A DNA stretch of 64,000 nucleotides from Agaribacterium sp. ZY112. Its GTDB lineage: Bacteria > Pseudomonadota > Gammaproteobacteria > Pseudomonadales > Cellvibrionaceae. Positions 6,106-62,494 of the stretch are shown here, piece after piece; position 1 is the first letter of the stretch; every line of letters begins with the position of its first letter. A model generated the notes under the pieces. That model saw nothing but the letters and a program-made list of their open reading frames with translations. It was not told the origin of the DNA and did no database searches. The stretch is taken from assembly GCF_041346925.1 (NCBI RefSeq), contig NZ_CP166840.1:1302001-1366000 (forward strand). Direction: 5' to 3'. The position numbers were made by a program, and so were the translations under genes.

Positions 6106-6260
6106 ATTAGGTATCCAATGAGGGATTCAAAATATGATGTAAGGTAGGGATACGAAGGCGGCAGTATCTGCCCAATACAAGGGAGGCTGCAGTCTACGGA
6201 TGTCGCCCACCGCAACATCGAGAATAAGTCAGATTACACAGGTAATCATGCTGTATTTAA

Positions 6261-6430
6261 GGCCGGTATCCGGGCTTGAGCTTTGAAGCAATGCTTCTTT
6301 TTATCGCCTTCCCGTGATTTGCACAGTGGCTAATGATAAAAATGTAAGGCTCTTACCGTTGCGGGGGCAGCGTAGGAATCTCACCTACTTCCCGTTTAAC
6401 TACACAGCTTAGCTGGCAGCACCTTGAAAC
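6261..6430 (-). promoter_or_regulatory. Cobalamin (adenosylcobalamin) riboswitch upstream of btuB
   Basis: On the minus strand the leader starts with the AAGGTGC-type P2 segment (near 6425), then GGGAAGTAGGTGAGA and CGCTGCCCCCGCAACGGTAA. It contains the invariant B12 box GCCACTG at 6330-6324, and closes with GGGAAGGCG and CCCGGATACCGGCC at 6274-6261, which pairs within the 3' part. These are the conserved elements of the cobalamin riboswitch class. The aptamer ends about 155 bases before the btuB ATG, leaving room for an expression platform. When coenzyme B12 is abundant it should lower expression of btuB and the genes behind it. Confidence 0.95.
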
Positions 6431-6548
6431 ACGGCGCGATTATAGAGAAGCCTATCGTGAATGCAATCACGGTTGTCGGCCCTTGCTTACATAAGCACCT
6501 AAAGGGATGTAGACTGAATTATTATTTGCACTTGTTATTGCTTAGATC

Positions 6549-7070
6549 ATGAATGTGCGTGGTTTTACTTTAATCGAACTGTTAGCCGTGATGCTTGTTG
6601 TTGCTGTACTGACTGCAGTGGCATTGCCGCGCATGGTGAATGTAGGCCAAAGTGCTCAGGTTGCTAGTTTGCAGGGCATGCATGCGGCTTTAAATAGTGC
6701 CACTACCATGGTTTCATCTTTTGCTGCTTTAGAGGGTTTGACAAACCAAAACGCTATTCTGCCAGATGGAACAAGAATCAGATTAAATAATGGTTATCCA
6801 AATGCTCGTTGGGGGGCTTCGGTTCGCCGTTTAGTGAGTTTGGATAATGTGCCTCAGAGTGGGGCTAGAGCTGAGTGCGAAAGAGACTGGTGCGGACGCG
6901 GTAATCGCAATTCTATTCCCGGCTTGGATCCCGCTTTAATTGGCAGTAGTGGGCATGCCGCTCTGATCTATTCTAGAGGTTATACGTTTAGAGATCAGTG
7001 CGGTGTTTATTATATTAACCCTAGAGATGGCTCTGCACCGCTAACGGGGCTACTTACAGATGGTTGTTAG
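6549..7070 (+). CDS. Type IV prepilin-like protein, copy 1 of 3
   Basis: A 173-residue secreted subunit with a class III prepilin leader: MNVRG, then FTLIELLAVMLVVAV, with Gly -1, Phe +1 and Glu +5 for the prepilin peptidase and methylase. The ALPRMVNVGQSAQVASLQGM stretch after the hydrophobic helix resembles MSHA-type pilins. The C-terminal half has a Cys pattern shared with the next two genes: CERDWCGRGNRNSIPG, then QCGVYYIN and a terminal DGC. The cysteines probably form disulfides in the periplasm. First of three tandem paralogues, divergent from btuB. No pilus assembly genes are nearby, so it must use machinery encoded elsewhere. No clear Shine-Dalgarno is visible. Confidence 0.88.
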   Translation: MNVRGFTLIELLAVMLVVAVLTAVALPRMVNVGQSAQVASLQGMHAALNSATTMVSSFAALEGLTNQNAILPDGTRIRLNNGYPNARWGASVRRLVSLDNVPQSGARAECERDWCGRGNRNSIPGLDPALIGSSGHAALIYSRGYTFRDQCGVYYINPRDGSAPLTGLLTDGC

Positions 7071-26491: not shown

Positions 26492-27904
26492 TTAGCTATT
26501 GGTTTTTAATACTGGCTTGGCTTCGTTTAGCCATTCATTTAATTGCACAAGATCTTGCTCTGTTAACATGCCGGCGACACCTTTAAGGCGCAAGCTACTC
26601 ATAATGTAGGTGTAAAGCGCGGCGTAATAATTTCGCTTGGCTTGATACAAGTTTTGTTGGGCATTTAAGACATCAACAAGATCACGGGTACCGACGCTAT
26701 AACCCGCTTGGGTCGCTTCTAAGGCGCTACTGGTAGAGATAATACCTTGCTCACGAGCATGTACGGTTGCAACGGTGGTTGTCACACTTAAGTGTTGAGA
26801 GCGCGCAGCTTGAACAACGTCTCGTTTGGCTTTTAGCCACTGCTCACGTGCTTGGATGGACTGTTGCTCGGCTTGTCTTCGAGAGGCGCTGACAGCGCCA
26901 CCATTATAGATAGGCACAGTTAAAGTTAGGCCAATGCTACTGTCATCAGAGTCTAGATCGCTGTTATAACCAAAGTCGGTTTCTCTATCGTCGTTATAGC
27001 TTGCATAGTTGCCGTTTAAGCTCAATACAGGGTAGTGGCCTGCTTTGGCTTGCTTAGCCTGACGACGGCTGGCTTCGGCTAGTGCCTCGGCTGCGGCTAA
27101 CTGAGGGTTGCCTTCAATAGCTCGGTCCACCCAAGCTTGGCGAGCAGCGGGTTGAGGGTTGCTAACGGCAAAGTTATCTTTGAGAGGGGCAATCTGCTGA
27201 TAGCTCTGACCGGTTAGTACTTCTAAGGCTTCAAAGCTAATACCTAGCTGGCCTTCTGCAATCAGCTTTTCAGCGACAGAGTTATCGTAAGCGGCTTTGG
27301 CTTCATGTACTTCTGTGATTGCGCTTAAGCCAACTTCAAAGCGTTGGCGAGTTTGTTCAAGCTGATGTTTAAGGGCGTCCTCTTCTGCTATTGCCGTAGA
27401 GTAATTATCACCAGCTAACAAAATATCAAAATAGGCTTGTGCGGTGCGCAAGATCAATTCTTGCTGAGCTGAGAGGTAGTTCGCTTCAGCAACATCCGCT
27501 GTCGACTTACCCGCTTTGTATGTCTGCCATGCGGCCATATCAAAAAGTGGTTGAACCAAGCTAATACCATAACCGCTATTGGTATTGTCGGTTTCACTGG
27601 GCAGCACTTGTGTGGTACTGCTTTCACTGCCGTCAACGCTTCTGTTGCTGCCGGTGTAATTAGCGCTGGCATTGATCTTGGGCAGTAGGGCTGAGCGTCC
27701 TAGTTTGCTGTCTTCTAAGCCCGCTTGATAAGCGGCTTGGGAAGCTTTGAATTCGTGGTCATTCTCAACTGCTTGCTGATAGATATAGTACAGATCTTCG
27801 GCTGTGCTGAATTGAGCGCTGAGGCCTAAGCAAGCTGCGATGCTAGCGTTGCGTAGAATATTGCGGTTGATACCGCGAGCAGAAAAAAGTTGTTTGAGCG
27901 TCAT
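26492..27904 (-). CDS. tolC: TolC family outer-membrane channel
   Basis: A 470-residue outer-membrane efflux protein with signal peptide ending near ...QFSTA. The two internal repeats begin with DLYYIYQQAVENDHEFKASQ and are rich in coiled-coil helices; motifs include LLPKINASANYTG, LVQPLFDMAAWQ, AQAYFDILLAGD, ETRQRFEVGLSAITEV-like (RQRFEVGLSAITEVHEAKA), and GYSVGTRDLVDVLNAQQNLYQAKRNYYAAL. TolC forms the outer-membrane exit duct for type I secretion and tripartite efflux. The position divergent from nudF matches E. coli. It is the only TolC-like gene in the window and a candidate partner for the HlyD-type adaptors at 57.5-62.5 kb. Confidence 0.94.
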   Translation of the reverse strand: MTLKQLFSARGINRNILRNASIAACLGLSAQFSTAEDLYYIYQQAVENDHEFKASQAAYQAGLEDSKLGRSALLPKINASANYTGSNRSVDGSESSTTQVLPSETDNTNSGYGISLVQPLFDMAAWQTYKAGKSTADVAEANYLSAQQELILRTAQAYFDILLAGDNYSTAIAEEDALKHQLEQTRQRFEVGLSAITEVHEAKAAYDNSVAEKLIAEGQLGISFEALEVLTGQSYQQIAPLKDNFAVSNPQPAARQAWVDRAIEGNPQLAAAEALAEASRRQAKQAKAGHYPVLSLNGNYASYNDDRETDFGYNSDLDSDDSSIGLTLTVPIYNGGAVSASRRQAEQQSIQAREQWLKAKRDVVQAARSQHLSVTTTVATVHAREQGIISTSSALEATQAGYSVGTRDLVDVLNAQQNLYQAKRNYYAALYTYIMSSLRLKGVAGMLTEQDLVQLNEWLNEAKPVLKTNS

Positions 27905-48775: not shown

Positions 48776-50068
48776 TTATTCTACTTCTGTCTTTGAGCTA
48801 ATGGGCCCAAAGACGCTTAATCGGAGTTGTTCAAGCTCTTGGGTGGTTTTATCAATATCTAAGTGCTGCATAAAATCGACAAAGATCTTAGGCGTTTTGC
48901 TGGCAAAGCGAATATCACTATCGCGGTCTAAGAATTGAACCCCGCCCGGCGAGTTGTAAACGACCTTAGAGACCTTTTTATTTAATGGAGATAGTTTTCC
49001 CGCAGCATTTTTATGGGCAGGTACACGAACAAGAGAATTGCTAAAGCCTTGCTGAAAGCGTACGGAGGTCATAAATAACAATAGTTTTTCTAGCTCAGGA
49101 CTCCACTCTACATAAGTTGGAATCATAAACACATTAGTGGGGTGTACGGTATATTGGGGGATGCCTGGTGTTATCTCTGGGAATGGGGCGACATCAATGA
49201 CGACGTTTTCTGGTAAGCGGACAAACTGGGGTTGTCCTTCTGTAAGAGAAAAACCGGTTTTTCCCAGAACAATCTTGGGGAAGGCTTCCCATATATTGAG
49301 GTGGGGGTGGTTGCTATTGAAACAATCTGCGTCAATAAGTTGTTTCCAGTGTTCAAGTGCTAAGTGAACACGTGGATCTTGATAGCTAATTTGCCCCTCT
49401 AATAATTGTTTATAAAACTCGAGGCCGTTGATACGCATGTTGAGATAATCAAACCAAACATGGGTCGCCCATTGAGTTTTACTACCAAAGCCTATCGGAG
49501 TTATGTTTTTTGCTCTGAGCGTTTTACACATGCTCAGCATATCCTGCCAGTTTTTAGGGGGTTGCAGGCCCCACTCTTTGAGTTGGCCTTGGTTATAATA
49601 TAAAGACCAAAGCAAGGTGGTAGCAGGAATAGCATGAACGTGGCCATTGAAGCTAACGGCTTGTTCGCTGGCTTTATTGATAACCTTGCTAAGTTGGTTC
49701 CTATCCCAAAACTCCTGTAAATCAAGAATCTTTCCCTGTTCGGCAAACTGAGCAATGCGTTTGCCGCCATACCAGTACACAACATCGGGCCCGTGGCCGG
49801 TTCGTAGCCAGCTTTCTACTTTATCCTCATAGGGCTGAATACCTCGGTGTATGGCTAGGCTCAGTTTAATATCTGGGTTCTGCTCATTAAATTCAGCATA
49901 TAGAGATTCAATCATATGGCGGTGTTTACCACCATCAATGTAGACCGCAACATGAAGGCGCTTAGGGGCTGCTGCGTCTGGTGCTTGGGCTGAGCTAAAC
50001 ACGCTATAGAGAGCCGTGATGATAAAAACTAAGAACGCTCTATAGGCAAAAATAGGGGGGAAGTGCAT
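48776..50068 (-). CDS. Extracellular solute-binding protein, family 1
   Basis: A 430-residue periplasmic protein from the ATG at 50068, with signal peptide (FPPIFAYRAFLVFIITALYS). The fold is MalE-like: LHVAVYIDGGKHRHMIESLYAEF at the N-terminus, GPDVVYWYGGKRIAQFAEQGKILDL, LYYNQGQLKEWGLQPPKNWQDML, and KIVLGKTGFSLTEGQP. It would bind an oligosaccharide, sugar or related solute. No permease or ATPase is nearby. It is the sixth gene in the minus-strand run that starts at 62494, 106 bases after the cyclase, so it could be co-transcribed and act as an input sensor; that is an inference. Confidence 0.8.
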   Translation of the reverse strand: MHFPPIFAYRAFLVFIITALYSVFSSAQAPDAAAPKRLHVAVYIDGGKHRHMIESLYAEFNEQNPDIKLSLAIHRGIQPYEDKVESWLRTGHGPDVVYWYGGKRIAQFAEQGKILDLQEFWDRNQLSKVINKASEQAVSFNGHVHAIPATTLLWSLYYNQGQLKEWGLQPPKNWQDMLSMCKTLRAKNITPIGFGSKTQWATHVWFDYLNMRINGLEFYKQLLEGQISYQDPRVHLALEHWKQLIDADCFNSNHPHLNIWEAFPKIVLGKTGFSLTEGQPQFVRLPENVVIDVAPFPEITPGIPQYTVHPTNVFMIPTYVEWSPELEKLLLFMTSVRFQQGFSNSLVRVPAHKNAAGKLSPLNKKVSKVVYNSPGGVQFLDRDSDIRFASKTPKIFVDFMQHLDIDKTTQELEQLRLSVFGPISSKTEVE

Positions 50069-50174
50069 AGGGGGATGCTTAAACCTGAGTAGTGTTATGA
50101 GGTTAATTTTCTTGAAGGCCGTGAGTCTATAGTTAGTATAGGCGTATATTACGGTTCTATTCTTGCTTATTATT

Positions 50175-51692
50175 TCACTTCTTCTGTTGGCTATCACTAA
50201 TGATGGTGCTAAATGATGGGTTCCAAGTGCTGACTTGGTCTCTGCCATTCTTTTTTGAGGCATAAAGAGCTTCATCGGCCATTTGTACCAGTTCATCAGC
50301 TGATTTTGCCCCTTGGTGAATGGATGATATGCCAAGGCTGGCTGTGACACTAACACCACTGGTGACCTGAGCTGCAATTTTTATTCTACAGCGTTCAGCA
50401 ATGGTTTGTGCATTAGAAAGTGAAGAACCAAATAAAATAATACAAAACTCTTCTCCGCCAAAGCGTGAAACCATATCATTGTCACGAACAACACTTGTTA
50501 AACAGTCGGCGGTCATCTTAATAACTTCATCACCGACTCCGTGGCCATAGGTGTCATTTACCTTTTTGAAAAAGTCGATGTCGGCCATAATGCAGCTGAT
50601 TTTGTTAGGTGTTTCTGGTGGAAAATCAAACTCGCCTTCTAGGCGGTCATACAGTGCTCGCCTGTTAAAGCAGTTGGTAAGTGGATCTCTTGTTGCAAGA
50701 AAGGACAATTTTTTATTTTTAATTTCGATTGCAACTTGTGTCTCTGACAGTTTTTGAATAACGGTTTCGAGTGCTTTCTGCTTTTCTTCTAACTCACTAA
50801 TGTCATCAAAAACGGCAATGCTTCCTTGGCAGTTACCGCTGCCATCTAAAATAGGGGCGGCATTAACGCGGTAACTCGTGTGCTCTCCAGTGTCTGTATC
50901 ATGGGTAAGCTTTATTCCTACCTGTTTGTTGCCGCTTTCTAGTGCCGCTATCCATGGGAAGTGTGTTGCATCTTGGTGGGGGGCTACTTTCCAGCCAAGC
51001 TGGCTAGCCTTACGGCCTATTAGTGACTTTTCTGAAGTGTTGAGGTGCTCTATCAAAGAACTATTGGCAAGCACTACTTGTTCACGTTTATCCAGTATTA
51101 ATACGCCCTCAGTAAGTATATTTAAGGCGTTGCGAACTCTTTCTGGAACAACTGCGCTTGGATCTAAATGTTTAAGTGCTCGTTTAATATAAAACCAAAA
51201 ACCTATAAAACCACTCACACTGATGAATATGATAAGAAGAATAAATGAAGGTATACCTAAGATATGATGTTTTTGTAAGGGTATTTCTGAGAACGCAGCT
51301 TCTAGCTCCGCAGTTTTTCGGCCTTTGAGTACAATTGGAATACTAATGGCCTCGGCTGTTGCACGTCCATCTTTCCTGGTCCAATAAGTATTATGTTTAG
51401 CCGTGGAGTAAGCCAGCAAGCCATTGCTGCGACGCAGACCTAGGGATTTAAGTTCGGGGTGCTGCTTGACTGCGCTCTGCATGCTTGCATTGAGTAAGAC
51501 TTCGTCTCCTCGTTTTAAAGCATAGTTAACATGAGAAGCGACTAGCTCCGTTAGTTGTTGGCGCATTAGTAATTGTTGCTGCTGGTTATTGGAGGTTAAG
51601 CCAAAACCATCAGCAACAATAAGTAGAGAGATAGTGAGTACCACTAAGCCCGTACTCAGCCGAGCGGCAGGGCTTAATCGAAGCATGGGCAC
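50175..51692 (-). CDS. PAS-GGDEF diguanylate cyclase, membrane-bound
   Basis: A 505-residue inner-membrane cyclase making c-di-GMP. Domains in order: helix at 12-30, periplasmic sensor to about 150, second helix (LGIPSFILLIIFISVSGFIGF), PAS with VRNALNILTEGVLILDKREQVVLANSS and QGSIAVFDDISELEEKQ, a coiled-coil linker, and GGDEF with DPLTNCFNRRAL, ADIDFFKKVNDTYGHGVGDEV and FGGEEFCIILFG. The active-site GGEEF is intact, with an RDND inhibitory I-site five residues ahead, so it should be active and feedback-controlled. The GTG start overlaps the giant gene's stop codon by one base and has AAGGA just upstream, which couples translation. Confidence 0.9.
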   Translation of the reverse strand: MPMLRLSPAARLSTGLVVLTISLLIVADGFGLTSNNQQQQLLMRQQLTELVASHVNYALKRGDEVLLNASMQSAVKQHPELKSLGLRRSNGLLAYSTAKHNTYWTRKDGRATAEAISIPIVLKGRKTAELEAAFSEIPLQKHHILGIPSFILLIIFISVSGFIGFWFYIKRALKHLDPSAVVPERVRNALNILTEGVLILDKREQVVLANSSLIEHLNTSEKSLIGRKASQLGWKVAPHQDATHFPWIAALESGNKQVGIKLTHDTDTGEHTSYRVNAAPILDGSGNCQGSIAVFDDISELEEKQKALETVIQKLSETQVAIEIKNKKLSFLATRDPLTNCFNRRALYDRLEGEFDFPPETPNKISCIMADIDFFKKVNDTYGHGVGDEVIKMTADCLTSVVRDNDMVSRFGGEEFCIILFGSSLSNAQTIAERCRIKIAAQVTSGVSVTASLGISSIHQGAKSADELVQMADEALYASKKNGRDQVSTWNPSFSTIISDSQQKK

Positions 51693-54600
51693 TACTTTCC
51701 TTCTTCTTTTCTTATATGCTGATCAAACAGATAACCCACTTCTTTGGCGCTCCTATCCTCATCGAGGTTGTCTAAGTCTTGTTTTCGTTTTTTCTTTTTA
51801 TTCACTTCATCAAGTATGGGCAATGGATCGACACCGCGCCACAAAGGCAGCATTGACATCAAAGTAAGCAGTAAACTACTGGCTCTTAGGGACCAAGCGA
51901 TAAGGCCTGTTGTTAGTGACAGGCTTAGGCCTGCCAATACGGCTTTTTGCTGTTGTTCCTCTTCTAGATTTTCTTGCATTTGCTCTGCGGCTCTACGCAG
52001 GTCTCTATCAAAATCATCAAGTTGCCATGAATTAAAGCCCGAATCTGGAGTAATTAGCTTTGAAAACGAGCTTAATCCGGTGTTGAGTGTTTTGTCTGCT
52101 TCAGGTGAGCGTTCACTTAACCAGCGATCGTAATCTTGGGCCGTGTTCATGCTGGTGACTTGAATGCTTGCCTGTACTTGGGTATCTAAAGAGAAGCCTT
52201 GAGTGGCTGAATCTGTATTGGAGTAGTTCGTGTCAGTAGATCCACCGAGCTGAGAGAGAGGGTTATTAATTGCGTTCTCGCTACCTTGTGACACATCACC
52301 TTCATTTACGGAATCGCGATTGTCGGAGCCTGAAGTATCTTTATCACCCTGTGGGGTAGAGTCTGGTGCACCCTCATCAGGTCTAATAAGATCGCCTGTA
52401 TCATCATTTTCAAACTTAGGCTGATTTGTATCGTCTTCGTCGGGTGTTGATGGCGCTGGTGGTATTGGTGGCTCAGGAATAATATTCTGATTTAAGGTTT
52501 TTGAAACAGTGTATGTTGTATCAACAAAAGCGCCACTGGCATCTTGTGCGCGAATAGTGAGAGTTGCTTCGCCTTGTTCAAAGGGGGCCGCTGTTAAAGT
52601 AAGTAAACCTGAATCGGAAACTTGGGTCTCAGTGATAAAGTCTGGGTCACTGTTACCGGTTACGCTGTAACTTAAATTTTCATCATCGACATCTGAAAAA
52701 TAATTGTTCAAATTAATTTGTTGTTCTGTTTGTGTATTAGCCAGATCAGTTGAAGGGATAGCTTGGCTTATTGGTGTGTCGTTAACTGAACTTATAACGA
52801 TAGTTAAACTACTCTCTATCCATAAGCCTTCAGGGTCGCTGGCTCGAATAACAATATTAGCTTCGCCAAACTGATTGATGTTATAGCTAACTTCTAGCAT
52901 GCCCTCGTCAGAGATGCTTAAATTAGATATTAATTCAGGTGCGGAGTTATCTTGTACGCTAAATACGAGTTCGGATCCATTCTCTTCATCTGTAAAAAAA
53001 TCATATAGGTTGATGATATCGTTATTCGCATCTTCTACATTGTGAAGAGGGGGGAAACCTATAGCGCTGGGGGTGTCATTTATCGCTAAAATATCTAATT
53101 CAAATACATCTGACGCTGTTGATCCATCATGACCGTCACTTGCTATTAATTCAATAATGAGTGTTCCAATATCACTGTTTGACGGTGTTCCGTTAAATGT
53201 TCTTGTGGTCTCATCAAATACTAGCCAGCTTGGTAATTCTTCACCGCTAAAAAGGCGAGCTGAATAACTCAGACTGTCATCACTATCTATATCAATAAAG
53301 GTGTTTTCTGGAACCTGAAAGCTAAAAACATGGTCTTCATTAACACTCTGGTCTGCAATTGGATTTATTAGTGTTGGCTCATCATTAACATTGGCAACAG
53401 TAATCGTAAAGGTATCAGTAACGGCTGCACCGTTTGAGTCGGTGGCGGTGACATCAATTGTGAGCGTGCCAACATCGGCATCATCGGGTGTGCCACTAAA
53501 AGTACCCGTACCCGGAGTAAAGGTCAGCCATGAAGGTAAAGATCCGCCGCCATTTAATTGTGCACTTAATACAAGGCTTGCATCGTCATCGACGTCATCA
53601 AACGTGTTGGCCGGAAGCACAAAGTTAAACGCAGAGCCTTGAGTCGCGTTTTGATCAACGATGGCATTGGCGACAGTTGGATCAACATTGGCAACGGTAA
53701 TTGTAAAAGTGTCGGTAACGGCTGCACCGTTTGAATCGGTAGCAGTGACATCAATTGTGAGCGTGCCAACATCGGCATCATCGGGTGTGCCACTAAAGGT
53801 GCCGGTTCCCGGAGTAAAGGTCAGCCATGAAGGTAAAGATCCACCGCCATTTAATTGTGCACTTAATACAAGGCTTGCATCGTCATCGACGTCATCAAAC
53901 GTGTTGGCCGGAAGCACAAAGTTAAAAGCAGAGCCTTGAGTCGCGTTTTGATCAACGATGGCATTGGCGACAGTTGGATCAACATTGGCAACGGTAATTG
54001 TAAAAGTGTCGGTAACGGCTGCACCGTTTGAATCGGTGGCGGTGACATCAATTGTGAGTGTGCCAACATCGGCATCATCGGGTGTGCCACTAAAAGTACC
54101 CGTACCCGGAGTAAAAGTCAGCCATGAAGGTAGGGAGCCGCCGCCATTTAATTGCGCACTTAATACAAGGTTTGCATCGTCATCGACATCATCAAACGTG
54201 TTGGCAGGAAGCGCAAAGTTAAAAGCAGAGCCTTGAGTTGCATTTTGATCCACGATGGCATTGGCGACAGTTGGATCAACATTGGCAACGGTAATTGTAA
54301 AAGTGTCGGTAACGGCTGCACCGTTTGAATCGGTGGCGGTGACATCAATTGTGAGCGTGCCAACATCGGCATCATCGGGTGTGCCACTAAAAGTACCCGT
54401 ACCCGGAGTAAAAGTCAGCCATGAAGGTAGGGAGCCGCCGCCATTTGATTGTGCGCTAAGAATTAAATTAGCATCGTCATCGACGTCATCAAACGTGTTG
54501 GCCGGAAGCACAAAGTTAAAAGCAGAGCCTTGAGTCGCGTTTTGATCCACGATGGCATTGGCGACAGTTGGATCAACATTGGCAACAGTAATTGTGAATG

Positions 54601-57436
54601 TGTCAGTAACGGCTGCACCGTTTGAATCGGTAGCAGTGACATCAATTGTGAGCGTGCCAACATCGGCATCATCGGGTGTGCCACTAAAAGTACCCGTACC
54701 CGGAGTAAAGGTCAGCCACGAAGGTAAAGAACCACCACCATTTAATTGTGCACTAAGAATTAAATTAGCATCGTCATCGACGTCATCAAACGTGTTGGCC
54801 GGAAGCACGAAGTTAAAAGCAGAGCCTTGAGTCGCATTTTGATCAACGATGGCATTGGCAACGGTTGGATCAACATTGGCAACAGTAATCGTGAATGTGT
54901 CAGTAACAGAGCCACCATTTCCGTCATCGGCTGTTAACTCAATAGTTAGAACACCTACGTCGCTATCACTGGGTGTGCCGCTAAACGTGCGGCTAGCAGG
55001 TGTGAAATCTAACCATGAGGGCAAGGCGCCGCCACCTTGTAGAAGAGCGCTATAACTAAGGCTGTCTATCGGGTCTGCGTCATCAAAAACATTTGTATTA
55101 AATTGAAATGAAAACAAGCTACCTTGAGTAGCTGCCTGATTGCCAATTGTATTTTCTAGCGTTGGATCATCATTAATATTATCGATAGTGATCGTAACAG
55201 TATCGATGTCTATTTCTGGGCCTGTATCCCCCGTATTGCCCAAGTCTGATGTTGTCATGGTTAGAGTGTCTGCACCAAAATAATCATCAGTGGGGGTATA
55301 GGTGGTTGGGCTAGCTAAAGAAGCATTGATTTCCGCAACGGTACCGGTAAGGGTGACCGTTGCAGTATTGTTACCTGTGACGGTTGCAGTCTCTGTTGCT
55401 ATATTAATGATGCCATGGTCGACAGAGAGTGTTACTTGAATGTCAAAGGTATAAGCGTCAACATCGGAAACGCTTAACCCGGAAATTATTAATGGGCTTT
55501 CTTCATCCGTGTTTTGTGCTGCAGGTACGGTATTTTCGGGGGCATCATTAACATAGCTAACATCAATAGTTAGGGTGTTGGGTGTTTGGTCTGTATCGCT
55601 GCCGCCTGTTTCCGTACCACCGTCATCTCTTACAGAAAAATTAAAGCTGGCGTAGCCGGTAGCATTTTCATGTTCTACGGGGCTAAATTTTAAATTCCCT
55701 GCATCAATATCGGCGTAACTAATAAAATCATTTAAGCTGACATCAACTCCGTTTAAAGTGAAGTCGCCAACCAGAGGCAGGCTGTTTATGACAATACCCG
55801 CGAAGTTATGACCATCAGCATCGCTAAAGCCAAAATTAGCTGGCGTAAATACTAAGTCTGTATCTTCGGGGGTTGAGAGAGTGTAGCTTGTACCTACAGG
55901 TGCAGTATTAGGTGGCGCCACTTCAATATTAATAACATCAGTATCTGTTAGCGCAGCACCGCCAGTATTGCCTTCATCGTCGGTGTGGATGCTGATACTT
56001 GCACTGCCTTGAAAATTTGTTGTAGGGCTAAAGGTGAGTGTGGCAATAGCGCTGTTTATGTTCGCAAGTGTTTGCGAAAAGGTCATTGTTGTATCGCTTG
56101 TACCGTCACCAACACTGAAGCTAACAAGACCGGGGGTTCCTATGCTAATAGTGCCATTGCTTGCGCTAAGAGTTACAGTAAGTGAGCCGGAGTTTGCATC
56201 GATATCTGATATTTGAATTTGATTTGCATTACCAGAGCTAAAGACAAGATCTGTATCGACGTCAGTATATTGATCTTCTGGTACCAGATTAATGGGGGCT
56301 TCATTGCCAAAGCTATCGACCACAAAGGACATGGTATTGGGTGTGCTGTCTTCTGTATTTGCGCTGCCATCATCAATAACTTGAAAGGTAAAGCTTGCAT
56401 CTACTGAGCCTGCAGTAAAACGAAGCTTGCCTAAATCAACATCCATTTTGCTAATAACGTCTCCCGCTGTTACAGCTAGACCATCAAGCGTTAAGGTGCC
56501 TGTTGCAGGAAGCGTCGTGATGCGAACATCAGTATGTATATCCCAAGGGCTATCAAGTGGGTCGCTAAAACCAAAGTCGATAGCATATATGGTGTGAGCA
56601 ACAGCCTCATCGACTTCAAAGCTTTTATCTTGGCCTTCTGGATCATTAGTGCCTAGGGCGCCTTGCCATCTGAGTGTGTTATCAGTGATTAGGTTTTTAC
56701 TTTCAATATCGCCATGTTGAACTTCTAAGACCCAATTGGCCGAAGCAATATTACCGCTTAGGTCATTACTGGCGGCGATGTCTGCGCCACTAAGTGCGCT
56801 AAGTTGCTCGATAAAATGAATGCCCTGTTCACTTTGAGCAACATTACAGCCATAAATCAAAATATCTGCATCACTGCTGAGTTGATCACTCCATTGATTT
56901 ATCTCATTACGGTAGTTGCTTAAGCTTTCGTTGTTGAGCTTGCTATTGCCTAAGATGAGCTCGCCATCTTGGCCATGGCTGAAAATATGAACTTCATCGA
57001 TGCCGTAAAATCCTTGCAGCTGTTTACTTAGTTGCAGTACGCCATCTTGGTCTTGCTCAATAACAATAATTTCAGCTTGATTGTTTGAGCCACCCAGCTG
57101 ATCAATAAGGCTTTGAAAATTTTCAATAGAAGAGTCGATAATGATGAGGGTGTCTACTCTTGATTCCTCTTCATTGGAATTGGAGCCTGCCAAAAGATGA
57201 TCGGTGTTATCGTTTAGATCATAAATGCTACTTAGATCTATTTCTTGGGATTCGGATACTAGATTGTTATGCTCGGAAAGGCGGTCATCAAATAGCGCGA
57301 TATCATCCGTTGCGGAAAATAATAGTTTGGCCTCTAAAGGCTCTATTAATACTCTTTTTCGCTTGTTTTTTACGGGCATAATATTAGTTACAGCTATTCG
57401 TTTCTTAAGGCTTTTAGCTTTCTTTTGGGTAAGCAT
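51692..57436 (-). CDS. Giant DUF4347 / cadherin-Ig repeat protein with C-terminal membrane hairpin
   Basis: A 1914-residue protein. Residues 28-45 (LIEPLEAKLLFSAT) match the LEPR-XLL motif of giant surface proteins. Residues 92-260 are DUF4347: VDTLIIIDSSIENF, VHIFSHGQDGELILG (His154-Gly155), ILIYGCNVA (Gly196-Cys197) and SGADIAASNDLSG. From about 265 to 755 follow cadherin-like units with DADG, NDAP and FSPTT-type linkers. From 755 to 1450 are He_PIG/Ig-like units (LPSWLTFTPGTGTFSGTP), of which five are nearly identical. Then two Ig-like units, a Pro/acidic linker (1660-1750), a coiled coil (QMQENLEEEQQQ) and two hydrophobic helices at 1832-1868, with a Lys-rich tail. There is no RTX repeat and no usual type I signal. 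It is probably envelope-anchored; function unknown. Confidence 0.86.
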   Translation of the reverse strand: MLTQKKAKSLKKRIAVTNIMPVKNKRKRVLIEPLEAKLLFSATDDIALFDDRLSEHNNLVSESQEIDLSSIYDLNDNTDHLLAGSNSNEEESRVDTLIIIDSSIENFQSLIDQLGGSNNQAEIIVIEQDQDGVLQLSKQLQGFYGIDEVHIFSHGQDGELILGNSKLNNESLSNYRNEINQWSDQLSSDADILIYGCNVAQSEQGIHFIEQLSALSGADIAASNDLSGNIASANWVLEVQHGDIESKNLITDNTLRWQGALGTNDPEGQDKSFEVDEAVAHTIYAIDFGFSDPLDSPWDIHTDVRITTLPATGTLTLDGLAVTAGDVISKMDVDLGKLRFTAGSVDASFTFQVIDDGSANTEDSTPNTMSFVVDSFGNEAPINLVPEDQYTDVDTDLVFSSGNANQIQISDIDANSGSLTVTLSASNGTISIGTPGLVSFSVGDGTSDTTMTFSQTLANINSAIATLTFSPTTNFQGSASISIHTDDEGNTGGAALTDTDVINIEVAPPNTAPVGTSYTLSTPEDTDLVFTPANFGFSDADGHNFAGIVINSLPLVGDFTLNGVDVSLNDFISYADIDAGNLKFSPVEHENATGYASFNFSVRDDGGTETGGSDTDQTPNTLTIDVSYVNDAPENTVPAAQNTDEESPLIISGLSVSDVDAYTFDIQVTLSVDHGIINIATETATVTGNNTATVTLTGTVAEINASLASPTTYTPTDDYFGADTLTMTTSDLGNTGDTGPEIDIDTVTITIDNINDDPTLENTIGNQAATQGSLFSFQFNTNVFDDADPIDSLSYSALLQGGGALPSWLDFTPASRTFSGTPSDSDVGVLTIELTADDGNGGSVTDTFTITVANVDPTVANAIVDQNATQGSAFNFVLPANTFDDVDDDANLILSAQLNGGGSLPSWLTFTPGTGTFSGTPDDADVGTLTIDVTATDSNGAAVTDTFTITVANVDPTVANAIVDQNATQGSAFNFVLPANTFDDVDDDANLILSAQSNGGGSLPSWLTFTPGTGTFSGTPDDADVGTLTIDVTATDSNGAAVTDTFTITVANVDPTVANAIVDQNATQGSAFNFALPANTFDDVDDDANLVLSAQLNGGGSLPSWLTFTPGTGTFSGTPDDADVGTLTIDVTATDSNGAAVTDTFTITVANVDPTVANAIVDQNATQGSAFNFVLPANTFDDVDDDASLVLSAQLNGGGSLPSWLTFTPGTGTFSGTPDDADVGTLTIDVTATDSNGAAVTDTFTITVANVDPTVANAIVDQNATQGSAFNFVLPANTFDDVDDDASLVLSAQLNGGGSLPSWLTFTPGTGTFSGTPDDADVGTLTIDVTATDSNGAAVTDTFTITVANVNDEPTLINPIADQSVNEDHVFSFQVPENTFIDIDSDDSLSYSARLFSGEELPSWLVFDETTRTFNGTPSNSDIGTLIIELIASDGHDGSTASDVFELDILAINDTPSAIGFPPLHNVEDANNDIINLYDFFTDEENGSELVFSVQDNSAPELISNLSISDEGMLEVSYNINQFGEANIVIRASDPEGLWIESSLTIVISSVNDTPISQAIPSTDLANTQTEQQINLNNYFSDVDDENLSYSVTGNSDPDFITETQVSDSGLLTLTAAPFEQGEATLTIRAQDASGAFVDTTYTVSKTLNQNIIPEPPIPPAPSTPDEDDTNQPKFENDDTGDLIRPDEGAPDSTPQGDKDTSGSDNRDSVNEGDVSQGSENAINNPLSQLGGSTDTNYSNTDSATQGFSLDTQVQASIQVTSMNTAQDYDRWLSERSPEADKTLNTGLSSFSKLITPDSGFNSWQLDDFDRDLRRAAEQMQENLEEEQQQKAVLAGLSLSLTTGLIAWSLRASSLLLTLMSMLPLWRGVDPLPILDEVNKKKKRKQDLDNLDEDRSAKEVGYLFDQHIRKEEGK
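53388..54872 (-). repeat. Five tandem copies of a 297-base unit in the giant gene
   Basis: Five consecutive 297-base units (99 residues each) encode residues of about 855-1350 of the giant protein, each starting near NVDPTVANAIVDQNATQGSA and holding one Ig-like (He_PIG) domain. Copies are almost identical in DNA, including synonymous sites, while flanking homologous domains on both sides are clearly divergent. Adjacent copies share variants (ANLIL in the first two, ASLVL in the last two), which suggests recent unequal exchange. Confidence 0.95.
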
Positions 57437-57534
57437 CCAATACTGCGTACCTAGGCCTTAGTAATAGAAACTGCCTGTTTCTAATAATATTCAATTTTCT
57501 TCTTTTATAACCATATGCCTTATCGCTATGGTTT

Positions 57535-58383
57535 CTAATTACTTAATAGGTTTAGCTCAATCCCTTCAAATTCAACCGTGCACTTTAAACCGCTAGGGAG
57601 TTTGCTGTCGGGGTTTGCTAGGTTTATCTTAATTGCAAAGGTGTTGCTCGGCGCATCTATAACCTTATCCACCGATGAAACCTCAGCGTTATATGTTTTT
57701 TGTATATTGGAAACGCTGGTTTTAATTGTGGCGCGCATTCCTTCTTTGATTTTGCCATAGAGGCTAGAGGGTGCAAAGATTTTGACGACAAGCGGGTCTA
57801 ATTGAGCGATTTTAAGTAAGGGGTCAAAATCTATATGTTCACCGGGTTGTTTATAGCGATCGACGACGATGCCATCAATAGGGCTGGTGAGTGTTCTTCG
57901 GTTTAGATCGGCTAAGGCTCGTTCGTATTGCAATTCAGCCTGCTTTTTTCTGTCGTGTGCTTGCTGTTTTTCTTGCTCGGCAATGGCATTTTCAGTTTTT
58001 GCTTTGTCTAATTCTGAAAATGAAGCTACTTTTTTATCGTAAAGGTTTTGTATGCGTTTCAAGTTCCTTTGGCTAAAGGCATAAGCAAGCTCAGCTGCAT
58101 CGATTTCACTAACCAATTCTGACTGAAGTTTACGCAGGCGTACTGTGGCTTGTTCAAGGTGGGCGTGCAGTGTAGCGAGTGTGTCTCCAGCGCTAATGCG
58201 GTCATTGACATCAACATGAACCTTGTTAATAACGCCTTCTACTTCGCTGCTCATCTCAATTACCATTGACGCTTCAATGCGGCAATTTAATAAGTCTGCA
58301 TCTTCGTCAAAAATAGGGGATTGGGCATGACAGAGTATGCTAAATAAGATCAGTGCTGCCGTAAACGATAAGCGAGTAGTCAA
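57535..58383 (-). CDS. HlyD/RND-type periplasmic adaptor protein
   Basis: A 282-residue membrane-fusion (adaptor) protein with signal peptide (LSFTAALILFSILCHAQ) from a TTG start. The lipoyl halves are VIEMSSEVEGVINKVHVDVNDRI and RRTLTSPIDGIVVDRYKQPGEH; between them is a coiled-coil hairpin (about residues 75-165) with ERQQ-type heptads (EKQQAHDRKKQAELQYERAL). The C-terminal beta-barrel domain ends in KLPSGLKCTVEF. It should span the periplasm between an inner-membrane partner and a TolC-like channel. There is no ABC or RND pump next to it; its likely partners are the two neighbours upstream and the giant gene after it, from which it is 98 bases away. Confidence 0.88.
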   Translation of the reverse strand: MTTRLSFTAALILFSILCHAQSPIFDEDADLLNCRIEASMVIEMSSEVEGVINKVHVDVNDRISAGDTLATLHAHLEQATVRLRKLQSELVSEIDAAELAYAFSQRNLKRIQNLYDKKVASFSELDKAKTENAIAEQEKQQAHDRKKQAELQYERALADLNRRTLTSPIDGIVVDRYKQPGEHIDFDPLLKIAQLDPLVVKIFAPSSLYGKIKEGMRATIKTSVSNIQKTYNAEVSSVDKVIDAPSNTFAIKINLANPDSKLPSGLKCTVEFEGIELNLLSN

Positions 58384-58521
58384 ATCTTATAACTCAATAG
58401 TTGGTTTTTGTGGCTTTTAATTCCAATGCTTTAGTGGAATGAAGCCGCCACTTATAAATCCCTCTGGGCATATGTAAATATAGCAAAGGCCTTAGATACT
58501 GAGGCTTTTACTCTTGGGTTT

Positions 58522-60696
58522 TTATTCGAAAGTTTCGAGAAGTTGTGATCGAACGAGACGACTTAACTGTTGGTAAGCACTTGCTGCCTTATGGTTAAAC
58601 GTTATGTAAGCTCTGGCGCCATAATAGGCCTGTGGAATAGCCGCGTCAGTGTTTAGATCAACTATAAAAGCTGTATGTACTAACTGCTTGGCGTTTTGGT
58701 CACTGCTGTCAATCTCAAAGGCACCACCTCCTGCTGTGCTTAAAGCCGCACTGGGTAACTCTTTGGTCGGGCTTGATAGGCCTTCTTCGATCGAGGCGCT
58801 AATGAGCGTATTGGGTTGATAGGAAAAGCGCAGCTCTATTGATTCTAGTGAGTTACGTATTAAACCGACTTGATCTTGGTTTAATACAGCTTTGATTTTG
58901 GCCTTGGTTTCTTTGTTAGTGATGGTGGCGATGGTCTCTCCAGCGTTAAAATGACGACCGACTAAAGGTTGTTCATCTATACGTCGATAGATACCTTGCT
59001 CTGAACTTATAACCTGTAATTTCTCGTGTTTGTTTTTTAGTTCTTTAAGTTCGGTTTGTAGGCGCTTTAACTCGCTGCTTATGGTGCTGGCAATAGCTCT
59101 GTTCTCACTCCAGGCTGTATTTAACTTTATAGTGAACTCGACTATCTCTTCTTTGAGTGTCTCTATTTCTGTCTCTATAGTTTCGTTCTGCAGTTGTACT
59201 AATAGTTGACCTTTTTGAACACTCTGTCCGTTCTTTATTTTCTCGCTAAAGAACTGGCCATCTGCTTCTATTTTTACCATATTTTTGTCGTCAAGCCAGA
59301 CGATACCCTCTGTACGAGTACTTTGTTTTAAAGGGAGGAAGAAAAAACATGCTATTAACATACTTAAGATGGCTAGGCAGGGTAAGCTCCGCTTTAATAA
59401 ATAAGGCTGTTCTTTGATGGTCTCAATAGTGGCGTATATAGTTTTGAGGATTGGCCATAACAACTGGAAGGTGATAAACCATAGACCCAGTATCAGGGCA
59501 AGTTTAGGGAAGTGATTAGCTGCAATGTAAACCAAGCTTATAAGTATCGTTATACGATATATAAAAGCTAAAATAGGGTATAGGCTTATCCAGTGTGCAT
59601 ATTCTTTTATTTCTTTTAGGCCTTTTAAATAAAATACAGACCTGCATAGTGATTGAAGTTTACGTTTTGCTCTGCTCGCTAGATTTGGTTCGTCTAAAAG
59701 GTCACACAAAAAGTGATAGCCATCAAAGCGAATGAGCGGGTTTAGATTGAAAATTAAGGTCGCAACAGCTCCAATTAGTATTATGTTAAATAAAATGTCT
59801 TTTACGATGCCTTGGTTTACTTGGGGCCAGAGTAGAATAGCTAGGCTGGCAATAAAAAGTTCAACAGCGATACCTGCCATTGAGACAATAAGGCGTTGTG
59901 ATTTTTTATCGAATCCAGTGGCTGATGAAGCATCAATGTAGGGCAGAGGAGTTCCTAGTATAAATACAATGCCAAAAGTAGGTGTTTGTCCACCCCATGC
60001 TTTGCAAGCCAAAGCATGGCCTAGTTCGTGTAGTAACTTAAGGGTAGGGTAGATAAGCCATAATAGTAATAAGTTTTGTGGCGATAATAGGCGTTCTAGT
60101 TTTTGGTTACTAAGTTCTTGCCAGTGGATTACCGAAAAGAAGATCCCGCTAGAGATGGTGATCAGCCAAATAATGAAGCCAAACTTGGAGAAAATTAATT
60201 GAGCTGGACGAGTCAGTTTGTTGAGTAGTGGTTCGGGGTTAAAGAGTTTTATATTCCATGTAACAGGGTTAAGTATTAGTCTTTTCCATTTTAGCTTGTT
60301 GTTCTTTTCTTTTCGTTGAATAAGGTACTTGGCGTTAGCAAGTTGGTCGCAGACAATTAAGTCAGCGACATGTAGATACTGAATGAGGTGAATAAGGTTT
60401 TCTTTATCGTCGTTGTCGTATTCTTGATTCGAGTCGTTTTCTGAGCTTGAGTCTTTAATGTTTGTAAATGTGTTTTTCTTACTGTCAATTAAAACTTGAT
60501 CTAAGTTCCTAAGGCCATTCATCGATGAGATCAGACTCATCGCTTCGGGTGTCATACGATGAAACCGGTTTTTGTTTTTATCTTCGATAATGAACCATAA
60601 TTCGCCTGCGTAATCTCGCCTTTGTATGTTGGTATGGCTCGCTAATGAAGGGCGTAGTTTTTTTATTTGTTCCCAGTAGTTATCAATGTTCATCAT
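58522..60696 (-). CDS. M50 (site-2) metalloprotease fused to a lipoyl/HlyD adaptor domain
   Basis: A 724-residue multi-pass membrane protein. Residues 1-130 form a PqqD-like segment (MTPEAMSLISSMNGL). The M50 core has LLHELGHALACKAWGG (His223, Glu224, His227) and the second metal motif NLNPLIRFDGYHFL (Asp325), set among six or more helices. After the last helix (about 455) is a periplasmic HlyD-type part: IEADGQFFSEKIKNGQSVQKGQLLVQL lipoyl half (from about 480), coiled coil (ETEIETLKEEIVEF), and a barrel domain. Such protease-adaptor fusions process or export peptides; the substrate is probably a neighbour. It follows the GAF-HlyD gene without a gap (one base between stop and start). Confidence 0.87.
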   Translation of the reverse strand: MMNIDNYWEQIKKLRPSLASHTNIQRRDYAGELWFIIEDKNKNRFHRMTPEAMSLISSMNGLRNLDQVLIDSKKNTFTNIKDSSSENDSNQEYDNDDKENLIHLIQYLHVADLIVCDQLANAKYLIQRKEKNNKLKWKRLILNPVTWNIKLFNPEPLLNKLTRPAQLIFSKFGFIIWLITISSGIFFSVIHWQELSNQKLERLLSPQNLLLLWLIYPTLKLLHELGHALACKAWGGQTPTFGIVFILGTPLPYIDASSATGFDKKSQRLIVSMAGIAVELFIASLAILLWPQVNQGIVKDILFNIILIGAVATLIFNLNPLIRFDGYHFLCDLLDEPNLASRAKRKLQSLCRSVFYLKGLKEIKEYAHWISLYPILAFIYRITILISLVYIAANHFPKLALILGLWFITFQLLWPILKTIYATIETIKEQPYLLKRSLPCLAILSMLIACFFFLPLKQSTRTEGIVWLDDKNMVKIEADGQFFSEKIKNGQSVQKGQLLVQLQNETIETEIETLKEEIVEFTIKLNTAWSENRAIASTISSELKRLQTELKELKNKHEKLQVISSEQGIYRRIDEQPLVGRHFNAGETIATITNKETKAKIKAVLNQDQVGLIRNSLESIELRFSYQPNTLISASIEEGLSSPTKELPSAALSTAGGGAFEIDSSDQNAKQLVHTAFIVDLNTDAAIPQAYYGARAYITFNHKAASAYQQLSRLVRSQLLETFE

Positions 60697-60697
60697 G

Positions 60698-62494
60698 CTA
60701 CCAGAACCTTATTAAGAACCAATGCCAGATATCTCTAAACCAAAGCCAGGCGTTGGTCTTTTCACCAATATCTACCCTGCTTTTGCCAGACATACCTGGC
60801 TGCAATTTTTTACTTTCTTTATTTAATTCGGCATAAACGGAAAAGACATTTTTACCTTCGTGAATCTCACTCATCGGGCTGATGCGTTTAATGGTGGCGG
60901 GGAATGTTTGTTGTGGCAGGCTTTCAAGCTTCATATTAAGTCTCTGGCCTAACTTAATAAAAGCAATGTCTCTCTCGTTGACCAATATCTGGGCTTTATA
61001 GGTATCTCCTGAGGCTAGTTCAAACAATATCTCTCCTTTATCAACAGGGCTGCCTAATCGTTGGTTGATGTCCGGTGAAATGATGGTTCCTGATGCAGGT
61101 GCTACGATATTTAAGCGCCGTATTTTTTGGTTAATAAGGCGTAATTTTATTTCACTTTGTTTTACTTGGCTTGCGACAATGGCGGATTCTGCTCGTAACG
61201 AATCGGCTAATGCCAGGCTGTATTCACGTTTTAACTTTTCTATTTCAAAGAGTGTTTGCTTTCTTTGGAGTTTAAGATCTTCATCAGACAGCTGGCCTAG
61301 AATGTCACCTTTTTTTACGATAGATCCAGATTCAACATAAACACGATCTAAAAAGCCCTTTTGAGGAGATGAAAGTAGGTATTTGTTTTGACTTTGTATA
61401 TAGGTTTTAGCTTTGACTTGATGCTGGCCCGGTATAAATAAAACTATGCTAAATAAAATGAGGGCAATAGCACTGATCTTTAGTTGGTAGTTTTTAGGGC
61501 CAAGCACTTGCTTAAGTTTGTATTGGCTTGCTTCTAATAGTCTTGACCAAATACTATATTCTGACTTTTGGTAGAGCCTTAATAGGCGAGCACATATGGC
61601 AAGATAGCTATCTATATTGGGGTTTTCTTGTTGCTCATGACTAAATTCAAAACAAAGTACGGCAAGGGTTTTATTACCACTTTTAAGTAGGTAGCTTGAG
61701 ACTTGCTCGAGATTATTCTCACGTATTAGTTGCTTGTGACTTTGATTGATAAGCTCACTTTCATTAGCTGGCCCTGTGCCTACAGTTTTTCGTATGTTTG
61801 ATCCTTTATCCAAACACTCATACATGGTGGCCTGTAACAGCTGGAGTTGAGTGGTTGTTTTGTCAAAGCTGGCGCTATTAGAGATAGCCTTTAGTTGCAA
61901 TTTGGGGCCTGTGACAAGTGCGAGAGATACGCGTTTGGCTTTTTCAAAGTAGCAAAGGTAGTTGCACAGGCTTAGGTGTAATTCTGCTTCACGGTCTTCT
62001 CTTATTAAATTGGCTAATAACTCCCACTCACTGCTGAGTTGAATATGCTTTGTAGGTAGGGTATTTACAGTGTTATTACTTGTTGGTGCGGGCTTTAGTT
62101 GTTTTGCAAAAGCGAGCCAAGCAAGATCATGCTGGCTTTGCTTAAGGAGCTCAGTCGTATGCTCTCGTTTAAAAGTGCAGAGTTCAAGTAATAAGATGTA
62201 GTGGTGTTCTTGCAGATTAAAGGGCTTGGCGAGTAAGCCGCCTTCTTTGTCTTTTTTAGCTATTTGTAGGCGTTGTTTTGAATATGCATTTTGTGAGAGG
62301 AGTAGGGCTTTATCTGCGTCTTGATCACTGGCAAAGCTATTGCTTTGGGCGATAAGTTTGAGCTTTACGTTTTCTTCCGGCTCATCTTGCTCGGCGGCAA
62401 GGTACAGAGCGGCACTAACAAGATTGGAGTGAGAGCTTGTTAGCGTTTTTAGCCAGAACTCATAGATGGTGCGGGTTGCGCAGTCCATTAGCAT
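60698..62494 (-). CDS. GAF-like domain fused to HlyD-type inner-membrane adaptor
   Basis: A 598-residue protein. Residues 1-320 are cytoplasmic. The later part looks like a GAF domain (MYECLDKGSNIRKTVG, ...ESELINQSHKQLIRE, LLKSGNKTLAVLCFEF); the earlier part is an unrecognised helical region. One transmembrane helix follows (about 350-368, ISAIALILFSIVLFIPG). The periplasmic part carries a HlyD lipoyl domain (LLSSPQKGFLDRVYVESGSI, KKGDILGQLSDEDLKLQRK), a short coiled coil and a barrel ending in KLQPGMSGKSRVDIG. It is the first gene of the run. GAF suggests that export is gated by a small cytoplasmic ligand. Confidence 0.8.
   Translation of the reverse strand: MLMDCATRTIYEFWLKTLTSSHSNLVSAALYLAAEQDEPEENVKLKLIAQSNSFASDQDADKALLLSQNAYSKQRLQIAKKDKEGGLLAKPFNLQEHHYILLLELCTFKREHTTELLKQSQHDLAWLAFAKQLKPAPTSNNTVNTLPTKHIQLSSEWELLANLIREDREAELHLSLCNYLCYFEKAKRVSLALVTGPKLQLKAISNSASFDKTTTQLQLLQATMYECLDKGSNIRKTVGTGPANESELINQSHKQLIRENNLEQVSSYLLKSGNKTLAVLCFEFSHEQQENPNIDSYLAICARLLRLYQKSEYSIWSRLLEASQYKLKQVLGPKNYQLKISAIALILFSIVLFIPGQHQVKAKTYIQSQNKYLLSSPQKGFLDRVYVESGSIVKKGDILGQLSDEDLKLQRKQTLFEIEKLKREYSLALADSLRAESAIVASQVKQSEIKLRLINQKIRRLNIVAPASGTIISPDINQRLGSPVDKGEILFELASGDTYKAQILVNERDIAFIKLGQRLNMKLESLPQQTFPATIKRISPMSEIHEGKNVFSVYAELNKESKKLQPGMSGKSRVDIGEKTNAWLWFRDIWHWFLIRFW

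Follow-up and report, generated by a model that had tools for sequence, protein, structure and literature searches.

The window analysed here comprises 64,000 nucleotides of Agaribacterium sp. ZY112 (contig NZ_CP166840.1, positions 1,302,001 to 1,366,000) and contains a run of six genes encoding a GAF-HlyD protein, an M50-HlyD protein, a small HlyD-type adaptor, a giant protein, a diguanylate cyclase and a solute-binding protein (SBP). We read this run as a motor-less form of a bacterial export machine of which little is known, and genome comparisons suggest that such machines serve giant surface proteins with a shared short address tag. We hold, with modest confidence, that the five genes from 50175 to 62494 encode a machine dedicated to exporting and maturing a single giant surface protein. 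The case is built on gene content, co-occurrence, adjacency, conserved motifs, a shared leader, predicted folds and a linked signalling gene. It bears out part of an earlier note on this DNA, which had read the six genes as an undescribed, motor-less envelope system with input from the SBP: the unit and its recurrence stand, whereas the novelty, the absence of a motor from the system at large and the SBP input do not.

In a sample of 299 genomes, 73 carry the M50-HlyD gene (a match to its M50 core at E <= 1e-20) and 226 do not. The LEPR-XLL tag (NF012209) was found in 35 genomes, all of them carriers, and in 0 of the 226 non-carriers (Fisher p 1.5e-25), while a short SecA, described below, was present among the matches listed in at least 27 genomes, again all carriers (p 3.9e-19), 25 of the 27 also having LEPR-XLL. 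DUF4347, a domain of the window's giant, occurs in 73 genomes, made up of 58 of the 73 carriers and 15 of the 226 non-carriers (p 1.8e-33), and 68 of the 73 carriers have LEPR-XLL or DUF4347. Among the nearest 97 genomes, all 14 with LEPR-XLL lie within the 32 carriers (here at match E < 1e-40; p 1.7e-8); none of these p values is an independent-sample value because the genomes are related. A partial list of 14 mixed genera has LEPR-XLL in no non-carrier and at least one LEPR-XLL carrier in ten genera, and one mixed genus consists of a single carrier, with LEPR-XLL, and 15 non-carriers. Co-occurrence outside close relatives, whose absence had been set beforehand as grounds for abandoning the proposal, holds for the giant and for all three adaptor genes; the cyclase shows it within the order, and the SBP fails to show it. 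The functional unit of three adaptors, M50 protease and giant, together with a cyclic di-GMP (c-di-GMP) gene, recurs beyond close relatives.

The giants also lie near the M50 gene. Among the M50 matches listed, 27 of 47 LEPR-XLL matches share a contig with an M50 gene, with edges 1.7-15.5 kb apart; 13 of the 27 lie 1.7-2.7 kb upstream on the same strand, the gap being filled by the GAF-HlyD gene, and three lie downstream. When DUF4347/M50 pairs on shared contigs were picked by hand, 34 of 35 fell within 8 kb. Judged by their N-terminal sequences, LEPR-type leaders occur in all three subtypes of the locus. When 20 N-termini of third-subtype DUF4347 giants were fetched, 17 carried the leader LE(P/A/Q)RxxFD(G/A)A (shuffles 0.0), a descriptive figure and no blind test because the pattern was written after those sequences had been read, an earlier pattern with another residue after the hydrophobic pair having matched 0 of 20. 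A related leader pattern, applied to 119 proteins that come mostly from other groups, cyanobacteria included, matched 0 leaders of the third-subtype kind and 12 of the other kind. At 19,427 residues, the open frame around the match G154:C115:112865-112924 (minus strand) is the longest seen with LEPR-XLL.

A query profile was built from an alignment of 44 M50-HlyD proteins, and the best 80 of at least 435 confirmed candidates were taken as named-genome loci; with 31 further short loci from the window's own genome and 96 relatives, 111 loci entered a six-frame profile scan. Their common plan is GAF-HlyD, M50-HlyD, usually a protein of ~665 residues, small HlyD and often a giant on one side or the other. 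In the neighbour test the M50 gene is immediately preceded by a GAF-HlyD-like frame at 106 of the 111 loci, a figure that counts at least three loci twice (L081/L082, L001/L083 and L054/L090), and this adjacency exceeds chance. At L025, L029, L062, L076 and L080 no GAF-HlyD was recognised directly upstream, some of these cases probably being contig-end or neighbour-rule artefacts. The 80 named loci include a short SecA at 72, TolC-type genes at 11 (within the fetched flanks), SapC genes at 17 and a DUF4347-type giant at 7, many giants extending beyond the fetched DNA. SapC (PF07277, confirmed by Pfam in L031) lies near the SecA-type loci L031, L042, L044, L047, L069 and others.

The ~665-residue protein, which has SecA_DEAD, PP_bind and P-loop domains, supplies an ATPase to most of the family, so that the absence of a motor distinguishes the window subtype and not the system. 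The short SecA has the nucleotide-binding domains and clamp; its alignment to the SecA of entry 3jv2 covers residues 17-607, which leaves out the wing, two-helix finger and tail. The TGEGKT and DEAD motifs are unchanged across 15 sequences. In the 299-genome sample its matches extend to profile position 650 or beyond, whereas ordinary SecA ends near 555, and of the 273 genomes with a listed SecA match, none but M50 carriers has more than one. No second SecA was found in the window's genome, all SecA matches falling in one 981-aa frame. In a tree of 109 M50 cores (quick method, midpoint rooting, several long branches) the window clusters with five relatives from the Cellvibrionaceae that share its plan (SH-aLRT 90). 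This cluster falls outside a supported clade (97) comprising all 79 SecA-type loci and 8 SecA-less ones. The SecA label changes 5 times if unlabelled rows are taken as SecA-less. The SecA-less groups diverge first under midpoint rooting, the long branches and the root leaving the direction unsure; the SecA-less core may be older than the SecA-bearing form.

The adaptor and peptidase set has been in print since 2015: GAF-HlyD, M50-HlyD and HlyD were described in a secondary SecA_DEAD locus, sometimes with an OEP gene, and a secretion-related role was proposed (Kamneva, Poudel & Ward 2015, PMC4452313), with SecA2-SecY2 mentioned as well. The same paper gives META1p2402-2399 as the locus of Methylobacterium extorquens AM1, which belongs to the SecA subtype. 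The window has these three genes together and lacks the defining SecA_DEAD protein, which places it in the wider family of M50-HlyD loci and not among SecA loci as defined there. The available text of that paper names no cargo, LEPR tag, DUF4347, PqqD/RRE domain, cyclase or SecA-less form; the legend to its Fig. 3 gives lengths above 1,000 residues for some drawn neighbours, and large proteins may therefore appear in the figure. In the literature searched, the phrase 'secondary SecA_DEAD' occurs in one other paper. LEPR-XLL is described on giant proteins, such as a Vibrio protein of ~8000 aa, in PMC10868602, and no link of the tag to a transport machine was found in the literature searched, subscription journals and preprints lying outside its coverage. 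The window's run shares HlyD-type adaptors (three domains) with type I secretion, and no HlyB-type ABC transporter is encoded among its six proteins. The accessory Sec system (SecA2-SecY2) of Gram-positives provides a dedicated SecA paralogue for giant adhesins. Its likeness to the present loci is limited to the SecA subtype; the short SecA is without wing and finger and has adaptor and M50 neighbours, and the window's run is without any SecA gene.

In the run, M50-HlyD (58522..60696, minus strand, as for all features of the run) joins in a single chain a PqqD/RRE-type domain, an M50 intramembrane metalloprotease and a HlyD adaptor. The predicted structure (AlphaFold2; mean pLDDT 86.8, pTM 0.69) gives the N-domain, residues 14-118 (60343..60657), a winged-helix PqqD fold on VIA-align structure comparison; the RRE match is not among the 50 Foldseek rows listed, because the HlyD part dominates that search. 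The zinc motif HELGH (residues 223-227; 60016..60030) is followed in the chain by N317 and NP..RFDGY (319-327), so that the membrane core has the HExxH plus N.NP....D of site-2 proteases, and H223, E224, H227, N317, N319, P320 and D325 are invariant both in the 44-sequence alignment and in a set of 19. Pfam Peptidase_M50 scores the chain at 22.1 bits, under its cut-off of 27.2. The nearest curated M50 models are maturases of ribosomally synthesized and post-translationally modified peptides (RiPPs), daptide (NCBIfam daptide_HExxH, E 1e-38) and YydH/LiaK, both yet below their cut-offs. The window's protein has the M50 core in common with these and differs by its fused HlyD, and no such precursor or modifying-enzyme gene is present among the six.

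This kinship, the 17 loci adjoined by SapC genes and the horizontal transfer of the secondary SecA_DEAD locus inferred by Kamneva et al. (PMC4452313) would fit a locus that exports a peptide or some other protein, with the LEPR-XLL giants sharing a mobile or accessory region by association. We consider this improbable, given the co-occurrence of 35 of 35 and 14 of 14 LEPR-XLL genomes, the frequent adjacency and the leaders common to all three subtypes; nor did a small precursor gene stand out in the gene lists, from which frames under 70-80 residues were left out and in which no dedicated search was made.

The cargo proposed for the machine in the window is the giant of 1914 aa (51692..57436), which comprises a leader, DUF4347, Ig-like repeats and a C-terminal hydrophobic stretch. 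The start sites of relatives suggest that translation begins at M20 (57379). Its leader motif LEAKLLFSA (residues 34-42; 57311..57337), preceded by a basic stretch, aligns with relatives, five family members carrying LEPRLLFSA at the same place. The LEPR-XLL tag named in the earlier note is thus present in a divergent form, LEAKLLFS against the LEPRLLFS of relatives, and NF012209 itself misses the protein; in common with LEPR-XLL proteins it has the N-terminal basic stretch, a tag of the LEPRxLLS kind and a repeat-rich giant chain. By hydropathy the leader is unlike a signal peptide, its best 15 residues in the first 60 reaching 1.09 as compared with 2.03 and 2.23 for the N-termini of the small HlyD and the SBP. 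DUF4347 (PF14252; residues 97-255, 56672..57148) matches at 162 bits (cut-off 24.6, E 1.4e-47) and has the caspase-like fold of clan CD cysteine peptidases in its predicted structure; H154 (codon 56975-56977) and C197 (codon 56846-56848) are invariant in the alignment and form a putative catalytic pair. The repeats, first read as cadherin, are mainly Pfam He_PIG (seven stretches, E 2.7e-132), with weak cadherin matches besides.

The C-terminal hydrophobic stretch of the giant ends in W...DPLPIL (residues 1832-1875; 51812..51943) and is followed by a charged tail with EVGYLFD. The stretch and its DPLP motif are kept in 10 of 10 aligned giants of the window subtype, and EVGYLFD in 6 of 10; DPLP is not seen in 20 fetched C-termini of giants (one of them read in the wrong frame), though the giant of the SecA-type locus L043 matches this region. 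Among the SecA-subtype giants at L157-L169 several end near an [RK]IxW-like motif (RIQW, RIVW, KIDW), a possible C-terminal signal, and others do not. At L126 three phage tail collar-like genes (5341-7050) stand between M50-HlyD and a DUF4347 giant, one of them confirmed by Pfam Collar.

Directly after the giant lies the gene for a PAS-GGDEF diguanylate cyclase with a membrane sensor (50175..51692; GGDEF E 1.1e-39, PAS E 1e-07 in Pfam). An alignable N-terminal membrane sensor is encoded after the giant in ten neighbourhoods of the window subtype (L112-L116 and L118-L122, with most of the L118 giant masked; at an eleventh, L117, the fetched DNA ends within the giant). The output domain varies among GGDEF, GGDEF-EAL (L119) and a hybrid histidine kinase (L122), and the pairing of a constant sensor with differing outputs speaks for a signal that belongs to the M50-HlyD machine. 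Of 58 genomes, 8 (its own included) encode a close full-length relative of the cyclase at E <= 1e-60; all 8 belong to the 20 M50 carriers (p 6.6e-5), and one relative lies within a SecA-type locus (G063).

Such an arrangement recalls the Lap system (LapA/LapG/LapD/LapBCE), in which LapG and LapD control retention of the LapA adhesin. The window resembles it in a giant surface protein, possible membrane retention, a nearby c-di-GMP gene and HlyD-type adaptors. Unlike Lap, the run has no ABC transporter and no LapG- or LapD-type gene among its six (the LapD model gives the cyclase 35.3 bits against a cut-off of 1020), and has instead an M50 protease and a clan-CD-like domain. The likeness raises the possibility that the locus serves processing or release only: the giant would cross by the housekeeping Sec route and be anchored by its C-terminal stretch, and M50-HlyD and DUF4347 would free it under c-di-GMP control, as in LapA/LapG/LapD. 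SecA matches at a single place in the genome, the conserved C-terminal stretch, the adjoining signalling gene and the matches of the M50 core to site-2-type proteases all accord with this. We nevertheless find it doubtful, as three HlyD adaptors fit a conduit better than a protease, the leader does not resemble a signal peptide, a dedicated SecA is encoded at 72 of the 80 named loci and the C-terminal stretch is not general.

Several further results weigh against export by a dedicated machine. Five of the 73 M50 carriers have neither LEPR-XLL nor DUF4347, 38 of the 73 have no called LEPR-XLL, and the occurrence of DUF4347 in M50-less genomes means that this domain is not diagnostic. Among the M50 matches listed, 20 of the 47 LEPR-XLL matches could not be placed near an M50 gene, mostly being on other contigs. 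The 24-residue NF012209 model scores the window's leader below its curated cut-off, and Pfam finds no GAF in the window's GAF-HlyD and no PqqD in its M50-HlyD, whether whole chains or pieces are searched; the GAF and PqqD/RRE assignments come from homologues and predicted fold. The wing, finger and tail, which the short SecA lacks, are the parts by which ordinary SecA works on SecYEG. The C-terminal stretch of the giant argues for membrane retention over free secretion, and both secretion and cleavage of the giant are steps that we infer.

From these elements we infer leader binding, cleavage, an export route, an energy source, membrane retention and c-di-GMP control as follows. The giant would carry a non-Sec leader consisting of a basic stretch and LE-P/A-R/K-x-L-L, which the RRE-like N-domain of M50-HlyD may bind at the cytoplasmic face of the membrane. 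The N-terminus would then pass to the M50 membrane core, which would either cut the leader or aid the chain in crossing, while the HlyD portions of the three adaptor proteins (GAF-HlyD, M50-HlyD, small HlyD) would form a periplasmic conduit, probably to TolC. That partner, suggested in the earlier note, is plausible in view of the TolC-type genes at 11 of the 80 loci, and the OEP/TolC gene it pointed to elsewhere in the window is real (26492-27904). Energy would be supplied by the short SecA in most relatives; the window subtype would need housekeeping SecA/SecYEG or another source. The window's giant would stay membrane-bound through its C-terminal stretch, with DUF4347 as a possible protease acting on the giant itself or on its anchor; through c-di-GMP, the sensor-cyclase may tune how much giant is produced or released.

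A broader proposal, which we offer tentatively and rate somewhat below even, is that M50-HlyD is the core of a separate Gram-negative export pathway, in which a RiPP-type domain reads the LEPR tag, a protease core replaces the transporter, the adaptors reach TolC, a wing-less SecA motor was added in one branch and the clients are among the largest bacterial proteins. The locus of 2015 had no known cargo and the LEPR-XLL giants no known route in the literature searched; the present work joins the two into a testable pathway of one motif, one reader domain, one protease and one adaptor set. If true, it would extend the RiPP peptide-recognition module to proteins as large as about 2 MDa, would suggest a route to the surface without an ABC exporter for frames of at least 10,000 residues and, through the SecA-less window subtype, would distinguish the essential core from the motor.

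The layout of the run is as first described, with corrections in the naming of domains. The ORF coordinates place all six frames on the minus strand at the spacing given in the earlier note. GAF-HlyD (60698..62494) has HlyD_D23/HlyD_3 at residues 367-568 (Pfam HlyD_D23 E 2.9e-18), a hydrophobic segment seen by eye and an N-terminal region that is of GAF type by homology, its name being supported by 32% full-length identity to the Cellvibrio protein of L001, which does have Pfam GAF. It is separated by 1 base from M50-HlyD, which is followed after 138 bases by the small HlyD/RND-type periplasmic adaptor (57535..58383; TIGR01730, 124.7 bits against a cut-off of 94.9) with its hydrophobic N-terminal segment, and after a further 98 bases by the giant. 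The giant's stop and the cyclase start overlap by 1 base. Domain searches with Pfam and NCBIfam, together with fold comparison, confirmed three HlyD-type domains, the matches of M50-HlyD to M50 and HlyD being weak, and in the same searches none of the six proteins showed an ABC, RND or outer-membrane channel domain. Upstream, 107 bases with a 9-bp inverted repeat separate the GAF-HlyD gene from the stop of an FdhF/YdeP-like oxidoreductase (62602).

The SBP (SBP_bac_1, E 2.9e-20 in Pfam) follows the cyclase by 106 bases if counted from the ATG at 50068; its longest frame (48776..50377) begins earlier, inside the GGDEF gene. No SBP match was found in the 111 M50 loci of the six-frame profile scan or in 20 fetched neighbourhoods, and the SBP shows no association with the M50 gene (p 0.89). 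The family has 11 matches in the window's own genome and 11 in a genome of the same genus, G003, that is without a full M50-HlyD match; two further genus members gave none at E <= 1e-20. No GGDEF motif was seen beside the ten other SBP copies (nine stretches), and an EAL-like pattern occurs in one stretch. We judge the SBP to lie outside the export system, its strand notwithstanding, because it is absent from M50 loci, is not associated with the M50 gene and has scattered paralogues, and its proposed part as an input falls with this. That the SBP is a true bystander is the one point in favour of all six genes being adjacent by chance in an operon-like run, which is very improbable and for the other five already refuted, as they recur together in related genomes. 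Elsewhere in the window there is a Cobalamin riboswitch at 6244-6442 on the minus strand (107 bits).

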